Translations under genes and position numbers: made by a program | Origin: a bacterium | Lineage (GTDB): Bacteria; Vulcanimicrobiota; Xenobia; Xenobiales; JADMJV01 | Assembly (NCBI GenBank): GCA_030149525.1 | Contig: JASBRJ010000391.1 | Coordinates: forward strand, 1-64,000 | Direction of reading: 5' to 3' | Length of the DNA: 64,000 nucleotides | Part shown: positions 1,156 to 17,738 of the stretch, one piece after another | How the letters are laid out: each line of letters begins with the position of its first letter | Numbering within the stretch: the first letter of the stretch is position 1 | Notes under the pieces: model-generated | Databases searched by the model: none | What the model was told of the DNA's origin: nothing | Seen by the model: only the letters and a program-made list of their open reading frames with translations

Positions 1156-4100
1156 CTACTCCATGGTGGAGAGCAGGCCTTCCAGAAAAAGTCTCTCATG
1201 CCGGTCTTCGACTTCATCGAGACCTCTGTTAATAGTGGAAAACAAAGCGCAGGCCAGGACGCCTGCCCACTGGGGATCGGATCGGTATTGATGGAGGAGT
1301 CTCGCTGCGATTTTATGAGAAGGATTGACCAGGGCTTTGCCGTTGGCCGCATCCCAACTGAGGAATCCCGCTCTCCATCGTTTCCAGAAAGAAGACTCAT
1401 CTTTCATTTTCTCCACCACATCGGGCCGCAGGAGGTTGGCTTCCGTTCCTGAGGTGACGGTGAGGAGGTCGCGCCAGGCCGAGCCCAGGAGAAGATCGAA
1501 ATCTGGGCTGGGGGCCTCTCCCTCCCAGACGGCTTGGGGAGGGAACTGCAAAGTCTCCAGAAGCTGTGGAAGCCAGTCTTCTCCGAGTTCTATAACTTCG
1601 TGGTAGGGGTCGGCAGGCAAGCTCCGCAGGCCTGGCCTGCAGACCAGTGTTTTCCCCAATCGCTGGGCCTGGGTTCGGAGTTGTCGCCAGGATAGGACGC
1701 GCTCTCCAAGGCACGGGACCAAAGGGATTTCGAGCAGGCCGGAAGCGATATTGAGATTGCTCTTTTCCCAGTGCTTATAGAGCTCACAGCTCCTGAGTAG
1801 CCAATGGCGCATTCTCTTTCGTTGGTGTTTCTCCATCGGGTCGGCCCGATAGCTGTGGATGGTTTTCAAAACGAGTTGTTCCACCGCTTCGTTCAAAAGA
1901 GATTGCCCTGAAGTCCGTTCTCCGCCGGCCACCCGCAGGAAGCCTTCCACCGGAAGCGGGTGAGCCAGCCGTTGCACCTGATCGGCGCCCAGCAGGTAGA
2001 GTTCGGCATCGCCTTTGTCAACCCATCTGGTGGCCAGATGAAAGGTGAATCGGTTTTCACGCCGCTCCACATGAACGGCTCCCGGAGTGGAACAAAAATC
2101 TTTCAGATGAGCTCGAAAATAGGCCAGGTCCTCCTCCAGGGTTGGGAGACTCGGCGGGGGCTCAGGGTTCGATTGCGGAGCGGACGTTTCGACGGAAGGT
2201 GTCGGCGACTCGATCTCGGCATTGAGATCGAAGGGAACGAACTCTTCTTCCGTTGTCAGTTCAGCCAGCGCGGAAAGTCTCTCCTTGTCGGGCCGCACAA
2301 ACAGTTCCGGTCCCTTGAGGGCGTCTCGATACTCCTTCTCCAGACGGGCCAACTCCTGAGCCTGTCTTTCCGCCTCGGTGGCAAAATTTTTGAGCGCTTG
2401 GGCAGGGGAGGGGTTCTCTTTCAAGCCCTTCATCAGTTTTTGGCGGCGAATCTGGAAGATGGTTTCGGGATTGTCCAGGAGATTTTGGCGGATCGATTCC
2501 GTGCGAACCACCTGTTGAGGTTGAAGAATTTCAGCCAGGAGCTTTTCTGCTTCCGGCATAGGGTCGAGGGCACCGGACTCTACCCCTTCGAGGAAAACCC
2601 CTCCGAGGTAAACCTTGTCGCAGTGTTCAAGATAGGTTCGCAGATCATCTACGCTGGCCAGAGTGCCGTCCTCAAGCCCCAGCAGAGGGGCGCCACTCAC
2701 CAGTTGGCCCAGGCCGTCGATGATGTCTATAAGACTTTCCCGTCGCAGCCCCTCACGATGAACAAAGAGGAGAAGTTCACAAATCAATTCCGCATAGCGG
2801 GGGACGGATTGATTCTGAGTTTGGGATTTCTCTTTCAAAAGAGAACAAAGCCTTCGTATGAGGCGCTTGGCCGGATCGCTTATATTTCTTCGCAGGTTGG
2901 CAAGATCGCCGTCGCTCATGGTGACAGGAGTTTCGATGATGAGGGTGGCCGTGACTCCGGGTAGCACGCTACCTGCAGACTCTCCCGATTTCACGACCAC
3001 GGCCTTGCCGGTGGGGTAAGCGTCGGGAACTTTCACCGACACGGTTTGAGCCCGGCCTTGCACCACCTGATGATCCACAAAGGCGGCCAAAGGTCGCTTG
3101 CGAGCCGCTTGCAGATGCTGGCGGCCGGAGCGGTTGGTCAGGTCCTTTACCTCCGACCAGCTCAAGGCGCTGAGATTAGAGAAGTACTTTTTCAGAACAT
3201 CAACCTCTTCCACTTCAAGAATCAGAAGTGTACCGTCCCAGCGCGCCAGTTGTGATCGTTCGTCGAGGGAGTAGAGGAGATAACCCTTTTGGTCGTAGTC
3301 CTCTTTGAGGTCTTGGAGGGAAACATAGGAACTGCCGGCTACCCGAAACAGCGGGAACTTGATGAGGTTGGCAAACTCTTCCCCCAGCAATTCCAGCCTC
3401 TTCGGGTCTCGGAAAACTCGCACATCGATGTAGCTTTTGAGATAGCTCTGAATGAATCGGTTGAGGGATTCTCGCTGATAGGACGGAATACGCTTTTGGG
3501 TGAGTTCCAGCCCCAGCGTTTTCATTTCGCTGCGAATGCGCCCTAGAAACTCTTCGTAGGCTTCGTCTTTCACCACATCGGTCTGAGAGACGTTCTTGGA
3601 AAGCGTGTCGTCGGTGACCCTCACAATGACGGGCGGCTGCAATGAGGCCTCCGAGCGGTTGACAAATTCGACCCCATGGCGAAGAAAAGCGATGTGGCTT
3701 GTGCTACTCCCGCCGTAGGTGGCCCCCAAACTTCCTTTGCTGGGACCGTTCTGGAAAGGCTTGTTGGGCCACGGGACCCCGCCGCCGCCACCGATACCGG
3801 AGACAAGATGCTTATTGTACATAAGTTGACAGGGCACGTCGGTGCAATGGCGGGTGATGATTTTTTCAAAAGGGTAACTCCCTTTGCCCTGGACGTAGAG
3901 GCGATGGGATAGAGAGGGGGTCTCGGCTCCGTCGAGCCGGTCGATGGTCTGAGTCGTCTCGGCTCCGCTCCTGTCGCCTGGTTTGCGACTGCGTCGAACC
4001 TGGTTGGACTCGAGGATTATCTGTCCGATGGGGAGTGAGCACGCACTCAACCATCCCAGGGCCAGTTCACGAAGCCTGTCCTGTTTGCGATCACGCCCCG

Positions 4101-4404
4101 ATTGAAAAACATGATCGTAGAGACCGTCTATCTCCGCCCGGCTGTAGCCGGGTCCGTCGAACTTGAGTTCCAGTTCGAACTCTCCCCGTAGACCGGTGTG
4201 ATTGTAACGGATTTCGATATTTTGAGCCCCCGACGCCACCAGGGCCTGAATCCATTGCAGAATGAAGTAGGTGGGGTCGGGGAGTTGAAACTTCTTGAGT
4301 TTGGCCAGAGCTTTGTCGGTGGCCAGGGTGAAGCTGCCGCGTTCGGCGGGTGTGGCATCGAGAAAAACGAAATCGTTGAACGGATTGGTGGCCTGAGTGG
4401 TCAT
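1156..4404 (-). CDS. Large Hsp90/HtpG-like protein with degenerate ATP-binding site
   Basis: 1082 residues. The N-terminal 125 residues align by eye with the N-terminus of the adjacent gene at 4405-5952: the N-box position (about 49-60) has lost the Glu, Asn and Asp needed for Mg-ATP, the DxGxG box survives only as FDGPG (82-86), and the G2 glycine loop is reduced to LALGW (114-118). A second match, NVSQTDVV at 271-278, corresponds to the Hsp90-type segment TLTRDAVI in the neighbour. The last 60 residues (LVNPSHKI and following helices) resemble the HtpG C-terminal dimerisation end. The middle 600 residues are unrecognised, with a charged segment near 700-780. Its ATG directly abuts the stop codon of the upstream gene, so the two are probably translated together. 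I infer a catalytically dead partner of the neighbour; client and role unknown. Confidence 0.85.
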   Translation of the reverse strand: MTTQATNPFNDFVFLDATPAERGSFTLATDKALAKLKKFQLPDPTYFILQWIQALVASGAQNIEIRYNHTGLRGEFELELKFDGPGYSRAEIDGLYDHVFQSGRDRKQDRLRELALGWLSACSLPIGQIILESNQVRRSRKPGDRSGAETTQTIDRLDGAETPSLSHRLYVQGKGSYPFEKIITRHCTDVPCQLMYNKHLVSGIGGGGGVPWPNKPFQNGPSKGSLGATYGGSSTSHIAFLRHGVEFVNRSEASLQPPVIVRVTDDTLSKNVSQTDVVKDEAYEEFLGRIRSEMKTLGLELTQKRIPSYQRESLNRFIQSYLKSYIDVRVFRDPKRLELLGEEFANLIKFPLFRVAGSSYVSLQDLKEDYDQKGYLLYSLDERSQLARWDGTLLILEVEEVDVLKKYFSNLSALSWSEVKDLTNRSGRQHLQAARKRPLAAFVDHQVVQGRAQTVSVKVPDAYPTGKAVVVKSGESAGSVLPGVTATLIIETPVTMSDGDLANLRRNISDPAKRLIRRLCSLLKEKSQTQNQSVPRYAELICELLLFVHREGLRRESLIDIIDGLGQLVSGAPLLGLEDGTLASVDDLRTYLEHCDKVYLGGVFLEGVESGALDPMPEAEKLLAEILQPQQVVRTESIRQNLLDNPETIFQIRRQKLMKGLKENPSPAQALKNFATEAERQAQELARLEKEYRDALKGPELFVRPDKERLSALAELTTEEEFVPFDLNAEIESPTPSVETSAPQSNPEPPPSLPTLEEDLAYFRAHLKDFCSTPGAVHVERRENRFTFHLATRWVDKGDAELYLLGADQVQRLAHPLPVEGFLRVAGGERTSGQSLLNEAVEQLVLKTIHSYRADPMEKHQRKRMRHWLLRSCELYKHWEKSNLNIASGLLEIPLVPCLGERVLSWRQLRTQAQRLGKTLVCRPGLRSLPADPYHEVIELGEDWLPQLLETLQFPPQAVWEGEAPSPDFDLLLGSAWRDLLTVTSGTEANLLRPDVVEKMKDESSFWKRWRAGFLSWDAANGKALVNPSHKIAARLLHQYRSDPQWAGVLACALFSTINRGLDEVEDRHERLFLEGLLSTME

Positions 4405-5952
4405 CTAGCTTCTCTCCAGTAAGGTCTTGAGCAGGCGAGACTCCACGGCCGGATCGAGACCATCGTTGAGAAGGGCGGCCTTGCAAATGACATAGGCGGC
4501 CAATCTTGCCCCGCCCGGGGTTTCTGCACGGGAGAGAGCCTTTCGGATCAAAGGATGGTCTATGTCGAGAAGAAGCTGCTGGGGGAGCAGATACTTGGTG
4601 GCCCAGAAGCCTCGCCGGAAGCGTCTCACCAGTCGGTCGGGTCCCAGGGCGAAAGTACACGGCTGAGACGGATTCATGGCCACCGAATCAGGATACTCCA
4701 CCGGAACGACAGCGCGAACAAGAATTCTTGCTTCTCTCAGCAGCCAGCGAATGTGTGACTCAATCTTTTTTAAGCCGGGTGGTCGCGGAACAGGGCGACT
4801 CACAGCAAGGTTTCTCTCTAGGGACACCACGGGAACCTCAAACACCGAAGAGAGCAAAGCGGCTGTTTGGCTGGTCCGACTGAAGCCAAAAACAGGGATC
4901 CCTTCGCGCGCGGCCCGGCGGGCCAGGTCGGACTCCTGTTCGGTGACGAAGAAATGGTTCTCCTCTTTGGCTGTTTGGGCAAGATCTGCCCAACTCACCA
5001 GATGATCGAAGAGACCTTTGAGCATAGGTCGCTTCTTTTGAGCAGAAGTGAGCTTTTCGGAGATCTCAACCAGATAAGGAGCGGCCACAGCGGCTGTTTT
5101 TTCCCGCAACTCCGCTCCACCTAAAAGCTGCTCACAGGTCTTGTCGAAAAGGGGACCGTGGATAATCTCGTTAAGGCGATTCATGACCTTGTGATAGTTC
5201 TCGTCCACGATAACGGCATCTCGAGTGAGGGTGTGTTCCAGGTGGTTGGAAAGGATCTTGAAGGTGATGCCGGTCAACTTTTCTTGCTCGCCTTCGGTGA
5301 GAGTCAGTCCCGTGTTGTAGAGCCCGAATCGCGAAGGTGAGTCGGTGGTGAGGCCGACGTTGAAAGTCCCCAACCCTTCCTGGACGGAAACCTGACAACA
5401 CGAGTCCACCTCCAGCGGACGGTTGATCGACTGATCGTTGAAGCTGATCTGAACATGAGAATGACGGCACCAGCGTGAGACTGTTTCGTGGCAGCGCCTT
5501 TCGAATTCTTGGAGTTCCTCGTAGGGTAGCAGTTTGAAGAGCTTGACGGAGGTTCCCTCCAGAGGCGCATGAAGCTTGAAGAGCTGAAAGTCGGTCCCAC
5601 CGTCGAAGGCGATTCTCCAATACTCCCCTTCGCGTCCGGTGTCGACGGTGACCAGTTCGGGTCGCAGAGAGAAGACGGAAACGAAACCGATCCCAAATTT
5701 GCCGATCTTGGTCAGGTCGTTCTCTTTGTCGGAGGAGAATAGGCGAGTGAGCTTGCCGTCGATGATATCTCGGCTCATGCCTTCCCCGAAGTCTCTGATT
5801 TCCAGACACACCCCGCCCGGATCAGAGAGGTACCTCGTTCTGACCTCGACGTTCTCGGTTCCGGCATCCATGGCGTTCTGCACTAACTCTCTCAGACAGG
5901 TAAAAGGGTCGCTGAACTGATCCACCAGGTTCTTGAAGACTTCCTCGACCAC
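4405..5952 (-). CDS. HtpG/Hsp90-like GHKL ATPase
   Basis: 515 residues, GTG start preceded by a GAAAGAAG stretch. Intact GHKL ATP-binding boxes: N-box LRELVQNAMDA (20-30; E22, N26, D29), G1 DFGEG (54-58) and G2 KIGKFGIGF (82-90). A middle-domain segment near 239-250 matches the Hsp90 'SRE/SRD' stretch, and the C-terminus (DIDHPLIRKAL and following helices) resembles the HtpG dimerisation end. Typical HtpG is near 620 residues, so this is a short, divergent relative rather than housekeeping HtpG. It is first in a two-gene unit with the larger degenerate paralogue at 1156-4404. A chaperone-type or defence-type role is possible; the sequence does not decide. Confidence 0.9.
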   Translation of the reverse strand: MVEEVFKNLVDQFSDPFTCLRELVQNAMDAGTENVEVRTRYLSDPGGVCLEIRDFGEGMSRDIIDGKLTRLFSSDKENDLTKIGKFGIGFVSVFSLRPELVTVDTGREGEYWRIAFDGGTDFQLFKLHAPLEGTSVKLFKLLPYEELQEFERRCHETVSRWCRHSHVQISFNDQSINRPLEVDSCCQVSVQEGLGTFNVGLTTDSPSRFGLYNTGLTLTEGEQEKLTGITFKILSNHLEHTLTRDAVIVDENYHKVMNRLNEIIHGPLFDKTCEQLLGGAELREKTAAVAAPYLVEISEKLTSAQKKRPMLKGLFDHLVSWADLAQTAKEENHFFVTEQESDLARRAAREGIPVFGFSRTSQTAALLSSVFEVPVVSLERNLAVSRPVPRPPGLKKIESHIRWLLREARILVRAVVPVEYPDSVAMNPSQPCTFALGPDRLVRRFRRGFWATKYLLPQQLLLDIDHPLIRKALSRAETPGGARLAAYVICKAALLNDGLDPAVESRLLKTLLERS

Positions 5953-6738: not shown

Positions 6739-7092
6739 TTGGCTGAAGACACGGCACTGGATCGAGAATTTCTGGAGGAGTTGCTGGATGGGGACGTGGA
6801 GTTCGCCCAGGAACTGTTCGAGACCTATTTTCAATCGGCCGATGCCGCCTATCTTGAAGCCGAAGAACGCCTCGCCGCCAACGACGTGGAGAATGCGTTC
6901 CGTCCATTTCATACTCTCAAAGGGGCTTCCGCATCAGTTGGCTTATTGGGAGTGCAAGAACTGGCGAAGAGCATGGAGTTGAGAGCCAAGGCCGGCGAAC
7001 TCGACTTCTGTCGAGAGCGAATGTTCAGTCTCCAAGCGGTTCTGGAAAGCGCCAAGAAAGTCTTGACCGACTATTTGGAGTCGCTATCTTGA
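6739..7092 (+). CDS. HPt (histidine phosphotransfer) domain protein
   Basis: 117 residues from a TTG start with GGGGAGGA 7 bases upstream. The whole protein is one helical HPt domain; the phospho-acceptor is the His of HTLKGASASVG (about residue 58), with the conserved Lys and Gly after it. Such proteins relay phosphate between hybrid sensor kinases and response regulators. No kinase or receiver domain lies nearby, so the partners are encoded elsewhere. It sits 15 bases after the YceI-like gene, and its stop overlaps the TTG start of the M48 protease (TTGA), so the two are probably translationally coupled. Confidence 0.85.
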   Translation: MAEDTALDREFLEELLDGDVEFAQELFETYFQSADAAYLEAEERLAANDVENAFRPFHTLKGASASVGLLGVQELAKSMELRAKAGELDFCRERMFSLQAVLESAKKVLTDYLESLS

Positions 7093-8543
7093 GCCAACGC
7101 TTGGTTGCCCTGGGGCTTGTTTTAGCCCTGGTCACTCCGGTTTTCTCCCAACCTTCCATCGAAACAAAGAGCGGTTCCGTCCAAGAACCGCTTTTTGTTT
7201 TGGTGACCGACTCCGAAGGGGCATGGAGTCCGGAGCAGCAAGCTCGCTTTGAGCCTCCGCCAGCTCTAGGCCATGCCTCTACGGTTTCCACCGATTGGAA
7301 AGAGCTTGTAGACACACGCCCCTTCAAATTTCTGAGCTACCAAAAGCGGGTTGCCCTGCTCCGCTATCCCCGACGACTTCTCGCTTCCAGTTGGGCTGAG
7401 CAGTATTTCGACGCCCGCCATGTTCTGGTGGTGAACCCCGCTGAAGATGGTCGAGTGACGGGTCGCCTGTTCGATCTCCGAGATCATCGTGTGCAGACTC
7501 TGGTAGTGGTTCATGAGACTCGGAGTGGGGCTGATGAAGCTCGGGGTGAAGCGTTGGCCGACGCGGCCGACAGAGCGGAGGTGGCCCGCTCGTCGGTAGT
7601 GGCCCATCCCGAATCCGGTCTTTTTCACCATCCCGGAGCCGAACATCTCTCACCTCGTGTTGAGTACACGACTGTGGAGACGGCTCAGCGTGCCGAAATT
7701 TACGGTTTTCAGGCTTGCCGGGTCTGCTATCCGGGAACTGACCGAGAGTCGCTCTACGATAGTATCGATCATCGCCTGGGTGTTCTGGTGGCTCAAACTG
7801 TGGAGAGTCGCTACAGATTGGCTCCGGTGGGCCCGGAGACGGAGCGGGTTCAGAACATCGGGAATCGCATTCTGAAGGAAAATCGATTTCTGGATCAGGG
7901 GTATCAGTTTTTTGTGTTGGAAACAGAGACGGTCAACGCCTTCGCGGCCCCCACCGGGCCTATCTACGTGACCACGGGAATGCTCGATATTCTTGAGTCC
8001 GACGACGAATTGGCGGCGATTCTGGGTCACGAGCTTTCCCATTCGGAGCGAAAACGTGCTCGCCGTCAGTATGAACGCTCTAGAGAGACCGGGGTTTTTG
8101 GGCTTCTGGTCACCGTGGCCACGGGAGTACCCTGGGCCCAACTGGGTTCAAGCATTCTTTCTACTGTGATGGCCCGTGGCTATTCTCGCGCTTACGAGTT
8201 GGAAGCAGATCGAGACGGAATGATGATGGCCTATGCGGCAGGTTATGCCCCGGAAGATTTTCTTCTGGTCCAAGAGAAACTGAAGGCGCTGTCCGAGCAG
8301 AAGCGAGGCGGGGGAGCGAATTGGTTGCGAACGCATCCCCGAGGCGACAAGCGTCTCAAGCAGCTCCGAGAGGTCTTGGACGATACCCGGGAACTTCGCG
8401 CTCAGCTCGATGAGCTAGAAAAAAAGGATATCGGAACAGCGCGAATGCTCAAGAGTCAGGTTCTTGACCTCCAAGAGGGCGAAGAGAATCTGCAAGATTA
8501 TCTGACTCTATATCAGGAGCTTCTCTCTCATGTTGAAAGTTAG
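7089..8543 (+). CDS. Secreted M48-family zinc metalloprotease
   Basis: 484 residues with an N-terminal signal peptide (hydrophobic segment 5-18, then VFSQP). After a long unassigned N-terminal half comes the peptidase domain: zinc motif HELSH near residues 314-318 and the third-ligand region YELEADRDG near 369-377, typical of M48 (BepA/Oma1-like) proteases involved in envelope protein quality control. The C-terminus has a charged coiled-coil-like stretch where BepA has TPR repeats. Its TTG start overlaps the HPt stop; its own stop overlaps the stop of the convergent gene at 8540 by 4 bases. Confidence 0.88.
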   Translation: MSQRLVALGLVLALVTPVFSQPSIETKSGSVQEPLFVLVTDSEGAWSPEQQARFEPPPALGHASTVSTDWKELVDTRPFKFLSYQKRVALLRYPRRLLASSWAEQYFDARHVLVVNPAEDGRVTGRLFDLRDHRVQTLVVVHETRSGADEARGEALADAADRAEVARSSVVAHPESGLFHHPGAEHLSPRVEYTTVETAQRAEIYGFQACRVCYPGTDRESLYDSIDHRLGVLVAQTVESRYRLAPVGPETERVQNIGNRILKENRFLDQGYQFFVLETETVNAFAAPTGPIYVTTGMLDILESDDELAAILGHELSHSERKRARRQYERSRETGVFGLLVTVATGVPWAQLGSSILSTVMARGYSRAYELEADRDGMMMAYAAGYAPEDFLLVQEKLKALSEQKRGGGANWLRTHPRGDKRLKQLREVLDDTRELRAQLDELEKKDIGTARMLKSQVLDLQEGEENLQDYLTLYQELLSHVES

Positions 8544-13097: not shown

Positions 13098-16000
13098 TTA
13101 GTCCTCTTCGGAGTCGTCGTCGCCGCTTTCCTTGTCGGCATTGAGCGGGAGGAGATTTCTCCAACCGGAGAGACGTTTGCCTCCGCCTCCACCAAGGCGA
13201 CCACGCCCTCGTCCACGGATGCGACCCCGAGGACGTTTGGCGGTCGTTTCCTCTTCCGAAGGCTTGTCCTCGTCCTTGTCTGCCTTCTCCTCCGACTCGT
13301 CGTCCTCGGAAGAGGAGGGGGAGAGGGAGCGGATCTTTTTGATTCGCTTTTCCAGCCGCGCGGCGATACTGGATTTCTTGCCTGTGGACGAAGAGGCTCC
13401 GGTTGCGGCGGGTTCCTTGCCGGTTTCTTCGCCTTCGGCCTCCTGCTCTTCATCACCGTACCATTCTCCCAGAATGGCGTTGGCGCGTTCCAGCACTCGC
13501 TGCAGAAGGTCTTGGCCTAAAGCTTCGGCGTCGGTCACCTCTCCGGGTTCGGGCGGCTCCAGTTCGAGCTCTTCTAGTCGTTCTAAAACCCACTCCACCG
13601 TTTTCTCGGGATCAAGGTAGTAACTAGAGGCACGAGCCCTCAAAAAGCGCCATCCGAGCCGTTCCAAGACGGCTTCTCGCTCAAGAGACCGGGCCAGTCG
13701 TTCGGGGGGGTGCTCATTGGCGCCGTCACAGGTGATGGCTACGCGCCCACCTCGACCCTCCACAATGAGATCGAGCTGATAATTGCCCACCACCTGATCG
13801 GTCTGAACTCGATAGCCCGCTTTCTCCAAACCCCTTCGAATTCGGTACTGATAACGAAACTCCGGATCGTCGGTAGGAATGGAGCGTTCTTGAACCTGGC
13901 TTTCGGCCAACTCGGCGATGGTCTTTTCGGGATGAAGAGAGTGTTCAATGAGTCGTCGACGAAGGTCGCCTTCCTTGAGATGCTCCTCGGGGTCAAGAGA
14001 ATGAACGGCCCACATCTGGTCACGGGCACGACTGGCGGCAACGTTGAACCTTTTGACGAAGGTCTCAGCTGTTCGCAGAGAGAGTGCTTCCCCGTCTTCG
14101 GAGTGCTCCACCAAAGACAGGAAGATCACGTCGCGCTCGTCACCCTGGAACTGAGCGGCGTTACCACACACGATGCGCCGTTCCTGATACTCTGTGAGCT
14201 CCATGTTCTTGAGGAGCACCTTGTCTACCGCGAGAGCTTGCTCTTCACCAACCATGGAAATGACTCCAAAGGTTGCTTCTTCGTATTCCGGTTGTTCGCA
14301 GCAGGCCAGAATGAGGGCGGCGATCATCTCCGCTTCCTTCTGGTTCACCCGCTTATGAGCCACGCCGTTTTCGACTCGAACCACCGCCGTCGGAGGCTTG
14401 ATAGGCAGTCGGGAGGACTCACGCAGAGGCTGAATCTCCCCTTGATAGCACAGAGCGTTGGAAAAGGCGATGATCTCGTCCACACAACGGAAGTGTTCCA
14501 ACAAGCGGATGGAGCCCGAAAAGCTTTGACGCGCCAGGTCGTAGACCGAGGTGCGACCGTCGTAGAGTTCCTTGTTGGGAATGTCGCCCATGAACTCTTC
14601 AATGAGGGCCTCGACCGCCTGGAAGGAAATGCCGACAGCTTCCGGCGAGACCTGCTCATGGTCACCCACCACTAGGGTTTCGCGCCCGAGTGCGAAGGCG
14701 AGCAAGCCGGTGACTTCGCACTGGCTGGCCTCGTCTAGAATGACCACGTCGAACATGGATTCCCCGGGATGATAGCTCTCGGCCAAACGGCTCAGAGGCA
14801 TAATCCAGACCGGTACGGCATCGCGACACTCGGCCAGCTTCTCCCGCGCCATGGCTTTCAAACGAGGCGCACGCTTGCCGCGCCCTGTCCCGATCTTGCG
14901 CATGAGATCAAGCCAGCCTACCAGAGCCTGTTGCTGCCGAACACCGGTACGGCGGAGTTGGCTTGCCCAGGTTCGGTTCTCAACGTAGTTGGCCGTACAA
15001 GCTCGAAGCTGGTGACGGAGGCGGTTGGTCTCGTGTTGTAAGCTGTCGAAATCCACCTTTTGACGACGGGCCAGTTCCTGAGACCACTGAGCGTGATTCC
15101 AGGCGTCTTTGACCGAGCCTGGAGGCTTAGGGCCGTCGTGGGGCGATGCGTGACGCCCGATCTTGTCGGCCCACTCGGGCGCGGCCGCTCGGACTCGTGC
15201 CAAAAGTTCGTTACGTCGCTTCACCGGTTCGGCTAAGACGTAAAGTTGTGACAGCCAGGCAAAAGAACGGGCATACTCTTCGATGGAGCGATGACTGGTG
15301 GCGCTGCGCAAACGCTCCAGGATACCACCGGTGTCCGTTTCGGAGCCCTGGCCAAAGGAGGCCAGGTAACGTTCTTGCTCGGTAAACTTCTCTTCGATGT
15401 TGGTGAGTTCCAGGCGTTGGCGACGAGCCCGAACGGCCTTCTCCAAAGGTTCGCCCAGGGCTTGCCTGATCCGGTTGAACTCACCGTAGAGGGAGGGATC
15501 CGGGGGCACCTTACCCAGGAGGACCTCCCAATTGAGCCCGCTTTCGGCACAGGAGGTCACCAATTCTTCGTAAGTGTTCTCGCTCCAGCCAAGAGCCTGC
15601 TTCATCGGTTCGACGTAACGAAGCGCAACATTCTCAGGCTGGTCCCCCAACTGGGAGAAGGGGTCGGCGCCTTTAGGTGTCATCTGGTTTTCCCAGCGCA
15701 CCTTGAGGGCATCCCGGAGATTGGTGATCTCGACTACCGAGAGGATGGCCTCTATGTCCTCGGCGTTTTCCGGGACACGGCCATTCACTTCAGTGTGATA
15801 GATGAAGTGTTTCCAATCGCCCTTGGTCCAAAGAGTCATCTTCCCGATACTCTTACCGGCCCGAAGGTGCTCTAAAATCTCAAGCCCGACCTGATGCAGG
15901 TATTGCACGGGGCGGTCGCTCTTGACGGCAGCCCCGGTCTCCAGAATGACGCCCTGCAGGCGAGCAATTTCCGAACTGGTAGACTCTAAGAACTCCACCA

Positions 16001-17738
16001 AGTGATCCCAGGGTTCGCGGTGGGCTCCACCCAACCGTCCCACACGCATACACTCGATGGCCCAGCCCCGGGATTCGTCGGCAATGGTCGCCACAACTCT
16101 TTCGCCGGCCTCCAGGAGCCGGTCGAGATCTTCGGAGCTTTGATCGTCTCGAGTCCACAGGTCTCCACCTCGATCATTGGCCGCCTCACTCAATTCGGCA
16201 CTCTTAGCCACTAAAGTTCGGAAGCCGCCCTCAGTGAGCAACTTGGTAACTTCAGGAAGAGGTCGACTCAAGTCTTTTTCCAGATCCATGGGTATCTCGG
16301 TGTTGAGACTATAGAGTTCTTCGAACTCCTCTTCGGTGAGGGGGAGAGCGGCTCCCGGAACGACATCGCCGGGGATCCAGGAGTGCTCGTCTTTGTGTTT
16401 TGCCACCAGTTTGGCTGCGCGAGCCGGGTGAGTGCCCTGCTCGCCCACCATGATTGGAGAGAACTCTCCTTTGCGAGCGGAAATGAGTTCTTCCTGGATT
16501 TTGTCCAGTCGCTCTTCCAGATCGCGACGGCGATCTTGATAGGTGTTGGCAAGGTTCTCCAACTCGCTGGCGTCGGAGGTGGTGAAGCGGGCCACAATGC
16601 CCTTCACAGCGGCTTCAAGCTGCTTGCGGCTTTCCTGCTCTTGCTCCAAGACCGACACGCAGAGAGGCCTCAGTTCCGGGATCACCATGTCTCGAACCAC
16701 GCGAAGGGCTTTGGTGGCGTGGGAGGTGACTAGGACGCTCTTGCCCTGGGCCAGCAGATGACCTACTAGGTTAGCAATAGTGTGAGTTTTACCCGTTCCG
16801 GGGGGGCCTTGAACCAGCACGGAGCTTGATTCTTCTAATCGTTTAGCCACCCGCTCCTGTTCGGGATTGGACGGCATCGTCATGAGGAGGTCGAAGCGAT
16901 CACCGTCGACCTCTTTCTTAGGAACTTCAATGCCTACTACTCGGAGCAGGGCCGGGGGAAAGGTGTCCAGTCTGGGAATAGCGTCTATGTAGGCTTCGAT
17001 AGCCTGAGAAAAACCGAGGTTCCGGTTACCGAGGTAGAGTAACGGACTTCTCATAAGCGTTAGGCTTTTGGTGGGCTTTTCGTTCCCTTCCGGTTCTTCG
17101 ACATAGGAGCCGTCGGGGAAGACCTTTTCCTGGAGAGCCTGGAAGAAAGCCGAAGTTTCGGCCCCGCCAAGAGGGTGACAAGCTCGGCTTGCCAGCTCAC
17201 CTCGTGCCCAGGAAATCTCGGTTTCGTCGACACCACAGAATCTCAGGAGCGGGGTGTAGAGATAGGGCTCGCGATCTGTCTCACGCACGATAAATTCGGG
17301 TGTTTCCGCATCGAATTCCAGGGTCAAGTTGACCAGGAAGAGCGGATGACTCACGGTTCCGTTTGGTCCGTTGAAAAGGATGTGACCGTCGCCCAGGACC
17401 AGTTCCACCTTCTCCGACTCTCTTTCGATAGTCGACCAGAGTTCCAGGAAGAGATCGAACAGATTCTCCCCATCGGCATTGTCCGACCCCGGCTCAGGCC
17501 GTCTCACCTTGAGAATGAAATCGTCGCCTAGGATCTCCCCGTCTTCGGTCGGCGGTAAGATTTCGCCCTTGTCGGAGGTCGGATTACCTACCGGTACGTC
17601 TGACCACTGAAGCTTCCAAGGGTAACTGTTGAGCTGAACCTTGGGGGGCGTCTTGAGTTTTTGCAACTCAGAGAGGTAGCGAAACAGTCTACCGATTCGT
17701 TCCCTTGCTATTTCCAATTGATCGGGGGAAAGGGTCAT
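13098..17738 (-). CDS. Giant SF1 (Upf1/Dna2-like) helicase with C-terminal Vsr/MTES_1575-like nuclease
   Basis: 1546 residues. Helicase motifs in order: Walker A GPPGTGKTHT (311-320), motif Ia near LVTSHATKAL, motif II ILDEAS near 1000, motif III VVGDHEQV, and motif VI VAASRARDQ near 1234. A roughly 600-residue helical insert separates motif Ia from II. Residues about 1290-1400 form a PD-(D/E)XK-type domain of the Vsr/MTES_1575 kind (QLDLIVEG then VAITCDG, followed by an LGWRFLRA strand). Residues after about 1455 are Ser/Asp/Glu-rich, then RGRIRGRGRGR, then acidic. Helicase-Vsr fusions occur in defence systems such as Hhe and in general nucleic-acid repair. No classic partner gene is adjacent. 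Confidence 0.9.
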   Translation of the reverse strand: MTLSPDQLEIARERIGRLFRYLSELQKLKTPPKVQLNSYPWKLQWSDVPVGNPTSDKGEILPPTEDGEILGDDFILKVRRPEPGSDNADGENLFDLFLELWSTIERESEKVELVLGDGHILFNGPNGTVSHPLFLVNLTLEFDAETPEFIVRETDREPYLYTPLLRFCGVDETEISWARGELASRACHPLGGAETSAFFQALQEKVFPDGSYVEEPEGNEKPTKSLTLMRSPLLYLGNRNLGFSQAIEAYIDAIPRLDTFPPALLRVVGIEVPKKEVDGDRFDLLMTMPSNPEQERVAKRLEESSSVLVQGPPGTGKTHTIANLVGHLLAQGKSVLVTSHATKALRVVRDMVIPELRPLCVSVLEQEQESRKQLEAAVKGIVARFTTSDASELENLANTYQDRRRDLEERLDKIQEELISARKGEFSPIMVGEQGTHPARAAKLVAKHKDEHSWIPGDVVPGAALPLTEEEFEELYSLNTEIPMDLEKDLSRPLPEVTKLLTEGGFRTLVAKSAELSEAANDRGGDLWTRDDQSSEDLDRLLEAGERVVATIADESRGWAIECMRVGRLGGAHREPWDHLVEFLESTSSEIARLQGVILETGAAVKSDRPVQYLHQVGLEILEHLRAGKSIGKMTLWTKGDWKHFIYHTEVNGRVPENAEDIEAILSVVEITNLRDALKVRWENQMTPKGADPFSQLGDQPENVALRYVEPMKQALGWSENTYEELVTSCAESGLNWEVLLGKVPPDPSLYGEFNRIRQALGEPLEKAVRARRQRLELTNIEEKFTEQERYLASFGQGSETDTGGILERLRSATSHRSIEEYARSFAWLSQLYVLAEPVKRRNELLARVRAAAPEWADKIGRHASPHDGPKPPGSVKDAWNHAQWSQELARRQKVDFDSLQHETNRLRHQLRACTANYVENRTWASQLRRTGVRQQQALVGWLDLMRKIGTGRGKRAPRLKAMAREKLAECRDAVPVWIMPLSRLAESYHPGESMFDVVILDEASQCEVTGLLAFALGRETLVVGDHEQVSPEAVGISFQAVEALIEEFMGDIPNKELYDGRTSVYDLARQSFSGSIRLLEHFRCVDEIIAFSNALCYQGEIQPLRESSRLPIKPPTAVVRVENGVAHKRVNQKEAEMIAALILACCEQPEYEEATFGVISMVGEEQALAVDKVLLKNMELTEYQERRIVCGNAAQFQGDERDVIFLSLVEHSEDGEALSLRTAETFVKRFNVAASRARDQMWAVHSLDPEEHLKEGDLRRRLIEHSLHPEKTIAELAESQVQERSIPTDDPEFRYQYRIRRGLEKAGYRVQTDQVVGNYQLDLIVEGRGGRVAITCDGANEHPPERLARSLEREAVLERLGWRFLRARASSYYLDPEKTVEWVLERLEELELEPPEPGEVTDAEALGQDLLQRVLERANAILGEWYGDEEQEAEGEETGKEPAATGASSSTGKKSSIAARLEKRIKKIRSLSPSSSEDDESEEKADKDEDKPSEEETTAKRPRGRIRGRGRGRLGGGGGKRLSGWRNLLPLNADKESGDDDSEED

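Follow-up and report, generated by a model that had tools for sequence, protein, structure and literature searches.

An active-looking Hsp90 relative and its pseudo-Hsp90 neighbour: a candidate asymmetric chaperone pair in bacteria

Hsp90 is described as a homodimer, and the role of ATP in each of its two arms has been studied via artificial heterodimers. Could a clamp with a single ATP-hydrolysing arm also exist in nature as a fixed gene pair? This question is raised by two adjoining genes found in a stretch of 64,000 nucleotides (positions 1 to 64,000 of contig JASBRJ010000391.1, assembly GCA_030149525.1; here called the window), which encode an Hsp90-like protein of 515 residues (small subunit) and a degenerate relative of 1082 residues (big subunit). 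The window lies on contig G000:C83 of a fragmented 8.27-Mb bacterial genome (labels beginning with G, C and L are our own for genomes, contigs and loci), and its relatives in the searches carried the names Candidatus Eremiobacterota or bacterium UBP9. We consider it rather probable that the products of both genes assemble into a dedicated heteromeric Hsp90 clamp that works beside ordinary HtpG, one of its arms being an ATPase and the other a pseudo-arm.

An earlier note made from the sequence alone had proposed a pair of one active and one inactive Hsp90-like protein, possibly serving one client or acting as a defence sensor. Both open reading frames (ORFs) lie where it had placed them, and they stand on the minus strand, with the gene for the 515-residue protein (5952-4405) followed by that for the 1082-residue protein (4404-1156), and its TAGATG junction was read again: the stop codon of the first gene stands directly against the start codon of the second (...AGAGAAGC TAG ATG ACCACT...). 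The excess length of the second protein, given there as about 600 residues, amounts to 567 residues.

4404..4407, minus strand: stop-start junction TAG/ATG, read from the sequence
4405..5952, minus strand: small subunit, 515-residue Hsp90-like protein, ATPase-competent by sequence, with N-terminal (N), middle (M) and C-terminal domains (from Pfam/NCBIfam, hhalign, AlphaFold and Foldseek)
1156..4404, minus strand: big subunit, 1082-residue pseudo-Hsp90 with N and M domains, extra M-like repeats and an end resembling the C-terminal domain (CTD) (from hhalign and Foldseek)

Domain architecture of the two proteins

The small subunit lies above the curated cut-offs for HATPase_c_3 (2e-9), SACS (8e-9) and HATPase_c. 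As a single sequence it matches HtpG (NF003555) weakly (E 4.5e-10, 38.7 bits vs a cut-off of 371), and judged by this cut-off it is a relative of HtpG, not HtpG itself; a separate canonical HtpG gene is found elsewhere in the host genome and in most relatives checked. Compared with the canonical HtpG profile by hhalign it aligns colinearly over 468 columns (E 4e-20). A profile of 17 small-subunit relatives matches structures of TRAP1, Hsp90 and HtpG, with TRAP1 matched in the N-domain and in the C-terminal domain (second-domain match at TRAP1 437-603). Its AlphaFold model has a predicted local distance difference test (pLDDT) of 85.8, and the top 50 Foldseek matches in the PDB are all chains of Hsp90, TRAP1 or HtpG (E down to 1.4e-21). 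Because the TRAP1 and HtpG profile matches, the colinear HtpG alignment and the fold matches of the model agree, the small subunit has a compact but complete Hsp90 layout comprising a GHKL N-domain, in which the N, G1, G2 and GT boxes are all intact, an M-domain with its Arg loop and a C-terminal dimerisation domain. All nucleotide boxes are kept, as the earlier note had read them. The third box (G84-x-F-G87-x-G89) and GT134 are intact and invariant in 90/90 relatives, and the same holds for the motifs given below, of which the catalytic Arg was identified by alignment.

5866..5889, minus strand: N-box E22..N26..D29, intact, invariant in 90/90 relatives
5779..5793, minus strand: DxGxG nucleotide box, D54-x-G56-x-G58, intact, invariant in 90/90
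5221..5223, minus strand: R244 in EHTLTRD, presumed catalytic Arg of the M-domain, intact, invariant in 90/90
4408..4665, minus strand: Hsp90 CTD, residues 430-515 (P 5e-6 vs the HtpG C-terminus; TRAP1 437-603 match)

The big subunit matches no Pfam or NCBIfam family at E<=1 and nothing in the PDB by sequence, and 20 further big homologues gave no meaningful match in Pfam. Its relationship to the small subunit appears in direct comparison. Pairwise phmmer gives an E of about 1e-5, the dead N-M profile aligns with the active profile over 264 colinear columns (hhalign probability 99.3%, E 1.1e-20) and with HtpG directly at E 8e-6, which bears out the proposed alignment across the N-domain and a middle segment. 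The 49 PDB matches of its structural model with E<=0.001 are without exception members of the Hsp90 family, MORC being reached only at E 1e-3. Both N-domains thus model as Hsp90, no unrelated fold was obtained for the N-terminus of the 1082-residue protein, and the N-M fold and domain order of Hsp90 are present in the big subunit. Its ATP-binding residues are not intact: F82 replaces the adenine-binding Asp, and R and A replace the first two glycines of the third box. The HtpG-like C-terminus that had also been claimed is too weak to be significant with a profile of six orthologues only; with 61 diverse big proteins it becomes recognisable (P 5e-6 over 59 columns vs the C-terminal end of HtpG, P 7e-6 vs the small C-terminus).

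3985..4323, minus strand: dead GHKL N-domain, residues 28-140, with E/N/D changed to Q50/A54/A57 and the G1 Asp to F82 (from alignment)
3583..3585, minus strand: Q274 in KNVSQTDVV, replacing the catalytic Arg of the M-domain (Q invariant in 6 orthologues)
3145..3354, minus strand: first M2-like alpha/beta module, residues 351-420 (hhalign vs small M2 P 1.4e-5; secondary structure of the model)
2485..2688, minus strand: second M2-like module, residues 573-640 (hhalign vs small M2 P 2.6e-5; secondary structure of the model)
1540..1725, minus strand: third M2-like module, residues 894-955, the weakest (hhalign P 2e-4)
1159..1377, minus strand: CTD-like end, residues 1010-1082 (profile comparison with 61 big proteins)

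A count of hydrophobic segments on the big proteins (43/73) was judged unreliable and was not used.

The repeated M-like modules resemble sacsin repeats, and Pfam SACS together with HATPase_c_3 is matched by 32/32 small homologues. The pair might therefore be viewed as a bacterial giant-chaperone lineage that is closer to sacsin than to Hsp90 and is split in two genes. In addition, the third box follows closely behind the lid, and a short lid is reported for sacsin (PMC9880540). The full-length colinear HtpG match includes a CTD, whereas the abstract of that source does not describe one for the sacsin repeats, and we regard this descent as very improbable.

Conserved loss of the catalytic residues and pairing of the genes

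Is the degenerate state of the big subunit peculiar to this genome or a property of a family? Among 192 distinct related N-M domains, in each of which 11 catalytic positions were checked, no intermediates occur: 90/90 active domains have all 11 motif residues and the other 102 are dead. The first or second glycine of the third box is kept in at most three of these 102 and the catalytic Arg in at most two. Because none of the 102 keeps the Mg-binding Asn of the N-box or the nucleotide-binding G1 Asp, the big subunit is, as far as sequence can tell, a pseudo-Hsp90 and not an Hsp90 ATPase. The N-box Glu is still present in 49 of the 102; that the window protein lacks it is thus a detail of the lineage. 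The loss of Glu, Asn and Asp described in the earlier note is thus correct for the window protein; family-wide the Glu is not lost throughout, whereas the Asn and Asp of the N-box, the G1 Asp and both leading glycines of the third box are, and the catalytic Arg is missing in nearly every case.

In a tree that includes HtpG the dead domains form one clade (support 100/99, recovered in 100% of bootstrap trees), and the dead state is, on this phylogeny, of single and ancient origin. Between orthologue pairs the ratio of nonsynonymous to synonymous substitution rates (dN/dS) is 0.04-0.09 in the small gene, compared with 0.11-0.26 in the big gene; these values are approximate, as synonymous sites are near saturation in several comparisons. 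By these estimates the big gene is under purifying selection, yet evolves faster than the small one. The distances of the two partners are correlated (Mantel r 0.80, against 0.12 for the best of 500 permutations), for part of which shared species history accounts.

One might suppose from the loss of all catalytic motifs that the big gene is a decaying, functionless duplicate. Long stop-free ORFs across the family, purifying selection, a single ancient origin, conserved new residues and persistence across phyla speak to the contrary, and the chance that this explanation is correct is practically negligible. A decaying paralogue is refuted by the dN/dS values together with conservation at the level of phyla, and the same two observations rule out chance or artefact ORFs. 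Two active homologues (G006:C409, which is L056, and G017:C22) contain an in-frame TAG inside the match and are either broken copies or sequencing errors.

The pairing was followed with the active protein as query in one genome per species, which gave 80 loci mainly from Eremiobacterota and Myxococcota, besides Bradymonadales-type and Elusimicrobia records; the adjacency count thus describes the active clade only. Three of the 90 distinct active proteins stand at a contig edge. A dead gene lies directly adjacent on the same strand in 74 of the 87 informative cases (Eremiobacterota, Myxococcota), 73 of them recognised by script and one (L041) by eye, as its dead domain falls below the script threshold. 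The active gene nearly always comes first and the genes usually overlap or abut. In L072, counted among the 74, active and dead parts are fused in a single ORF of 1901 amino acids, while at four loci (L106, L121, L143, L159) one active gene is accompanied by two or three dead genes in tandem.

Co-occurrence leads to the same picture. Within the host's own phylum (149 genomes) 13 possess both genes, none a single one and 136 neither; in a sample centred on Nannocystis (Myxococcota, 141 genomes) both were found in 26, only the dead gene in two, only the active gene in one and neither in 112. Combined, 39 of the 290 genomes contain both, three only one and 248 neither. Nearly all genomes with either gene thus have both, and adjacent, as the proposal of a pair had supposed. 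That active and dead genes appear as a widespread module inherited as a unit is strongly supported by these distributions, and the claim of an active/inactive pair is sustained by the conserved dead state, its single-clade origin, purifying selection and the gene fusion.

Heteromeric clamp, adaptor or defence system

The proposed clamp builds on what was established for the pair: homology, conserved loss, single origin, purifying selection, adjacency, co-occurrence, co-divergence and one gene fusion. The small protein, with its compact N-M-CTD architecture, would bind and hydrolyse ATP. The big N-domain would keep its fold but could no longer bind nucleotide in the manner of Hsp90, and its M-domain is without the catalytic Arg; this arm appears to be lengthened by the extra M-like modules and to end in a CTD-type element like that of the small protein. 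Both proteins would associate via these C-terminal elements (and the N-domains) to form a heteromeric clamp whose ATP hydrolysis is confined to the small arm. The big arm would offer a fixed, client-specific surface and thereby choose the client, and the clamp would presumably act as a chaperone. That the heteropair is obligate, as considered in the earlier note, is an inference, and the narrower suggestion that the pair serves one client is unsupported.

Several observations weigh against such a clamp. About 10 active proteins form a subfamily without an adjacent dead gene, so that a partner next door is not indispensable to the active protein. About 65 dead copies of the host genome are located away from any active gene. 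The model of the big subunit is weak overall (pLDDT 61.6, predicted template modelling score 0.42), with the N-M part mostly at pLDDT 75-90, and its matches to the CTD and to the M2 repeats extend over short stretches. A heterodimer having a D79N arm, which does not bind ATP, failed to support viability in yeast, as cited in PMC5018835. Finally, separate small and big homodimers fit the genomic data equally well.

The main rival assumes that the small protein is an ordinary homodimeric Hsp90 on which the big one docks as an Hsp90-derived co-chaperone or adaptor (similar to Aha1 or Hop) and not as an arm. Adjacency, co-occurrence and co-divergence are explained equally well by it, and genomics alone cannot separate the two. 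It accommodates the active subfamily without adjacent dead gene as well as the active-to-dead gene ratios of 1:2 and 1:3 in some clusters, and the TPR or kinase domains on some dead homologues suit adaptors. Against it, the big subunit retains both N and M domains in their order as well as a CTD-like end, beyond the needs of an adaptor, and in one case the two partners are joined in one polypeptide. We consider this adaptor possible, though clearly less probable than the heteromeric clamp.

The dead copies away from active genes deserve a closer description. When the host genome was searched with the profile of the dead domain, 80 matches were obtained, corresponding to about 70 distinct ORFs after second matches and matches to active proteins were removed by eye; beside them stand five active proteins. 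The extra copies (examples L177-L216) are mostly solo proteins of 330-830 amino acids. Among 41 of them the Asn is lost in 41/41 and the Arg in at least 39; their tails are mostly short, and in 19/41 a hydrophobic segment follows after residue 250, in most cases close to the tail. One extra copy has a protein kinase domain and one has TPRs. In Elusimicrobia two of 120 sampled genomes (G062, with L150, and G386) contain 10 or more dead copies; L169 is listed with this multi-copy case, and several dead copies are clustered on one contig. Five relatives (L062:8037-9716, L063:12260-13945, L064:3957-5636, L065:3747-5426, L066:15791-17467) encode a further dead homologue with a TPR-looking tail, which lies close to the orthologous pair on the other strand; no such copy was found in the window. 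The dead subunit represents a protein family absent from the searched Pfam and NCBIfam releases and present with dozens of copies in some genomes, and its distribution points to the pseudo-Hsp90 domain as a module that can be reused. It is a rather improbable idea that a combinatorial asymmetric network exists, in which few ATPase-competent subunits (five in the host) would serve some 70 dead ones, each of which would bring the active arm to a client or site of its own.

The neighbourhood bears on the proposed defence sensor. Neighbours differ between subfamilies, and all-against-all clustering of 502 neighbour ORFs revealed no conserved third gene shared widely across them. Pfam assigned them to transporters, histidine kinases, acetyltransferases and others, without a recurrent class, and PADLOC gave scattered matches only for both proteins and 94 neighbour ORFs. 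An anti-phage or conflict system, with the big protein as sensor and the GHKL subunit as switch, would agree with the patchy distribution, the faster evolution of the big subunit, the large lineage-specific expansion and a weak PADLOC match between the small N-domain and TmtA (Tiamat) GHKL proteins (E 2e-11, about 90 residues). No PADLOC model matches the big protein, however; no relatives were found in the plasmids and phages searched, the viral contigs searched contained weak N-domain matches only and no convincing relative, and the neighbours are varied housekeeping genes without a recurrent effector. The defence role that had been suggested thus finds no support, and we hold it improbable.

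In one subfamily a cyclophilin gene (PF00160) is located directly upstream of the pair on the same strand (L055:8048-8497, L141, L144, L148), and another stands directly upstream of the fused gene (L072:11966-12412); these genes hint at a role in protein folding. The active genes of the partnerless subfamily (L051, L052, L056, L122, L130; L044, L076, L086, L088, L090) adjoin an unrelated protein of 552-586 amino acids or a conserved one of about 130 amino acids starting with MEPVL. Within the window two further genes were noted.

7089-8543, plus strand: M48 peptidase
13098-17738, minus strand: helicase of 1546 amino acids (AAA_11/AAA_12) with a C-terminal nuclease domain of MTES_1575 type

Two loci (L065, L066) encode a signal-peptide protein with a start similar to that of the window peptidase and, as in the window, placed divergently upstream of the pair. 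Synteny may be partly kept between the window and these loci, as one neighbour cluster links the three.

Comparison with known systems

No description of a bacterial active/dead Hsp90 pair was found in the open-access literature. With HtpG (NF003555) the small subunit shares the colinear N-M-CTD order, all ATP motifs and the catalytic Arg, but it is about 110 residues shorter, scores far below the cut-off and has a dead partner. GHKL clamps with unequal or degenerate subunits exist in MLH1-PMS2 and TOPOVIBL, in which the C-terminal domains are DNA-directed. They belong to different families, whereas the fold matches of the pair are Hsp90.

Tiamat is a single-gene system. Its TmtA (PADLOC) resembles the small subunit in the GHKL N-domain, that is in about 90 of 1486 model positions, while the large C-terminal part is unmatched by the small subunit and the big subunit matches nothing of it. 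Sacsin (Pfam SACS, NF047352) shares the GHKL N-domain with the small homologues and resembles the big subunit in having multiple Hsp90-like modules per chain. Only the GHKL part is matched, with no DnaJ or HEPN Pfam match in the pair or its homologues, and the sacsin repeats are argued in PMC9880540 to keep the ATPase residues that are lost in the big subunit.

Further parallels are engineered heterodimers, which likewise combine one active with one dead Hsp90 arm. A TRAP1 heterodimer with one dead arm (+/E115A) forms, closes at normal rates and reopens poorly (PMC5550277), and for Hsp82, heterodimers form equally well with an E33A or a D79N arm (PMC5018835). Because these heterodimers form, a clamp with one dead arm is by analogy physically possible. 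If the interpretation as a heteromeric clamp is correct, the pair would be a ready-made system in which ATP is burned by one arm only. As an ancient, natural and fixed combination that occurs in two phyla at least, it would also show, as a test made by evolution, what degree of asymmetry Hsp90 can bear. The engineered TRAP1 and Hsp82 arms are point mutants made in the laboratory, whereas the pair described here is asymmetric by nature, through an old and genetically fixed difference, and its dead arm has twice the length.

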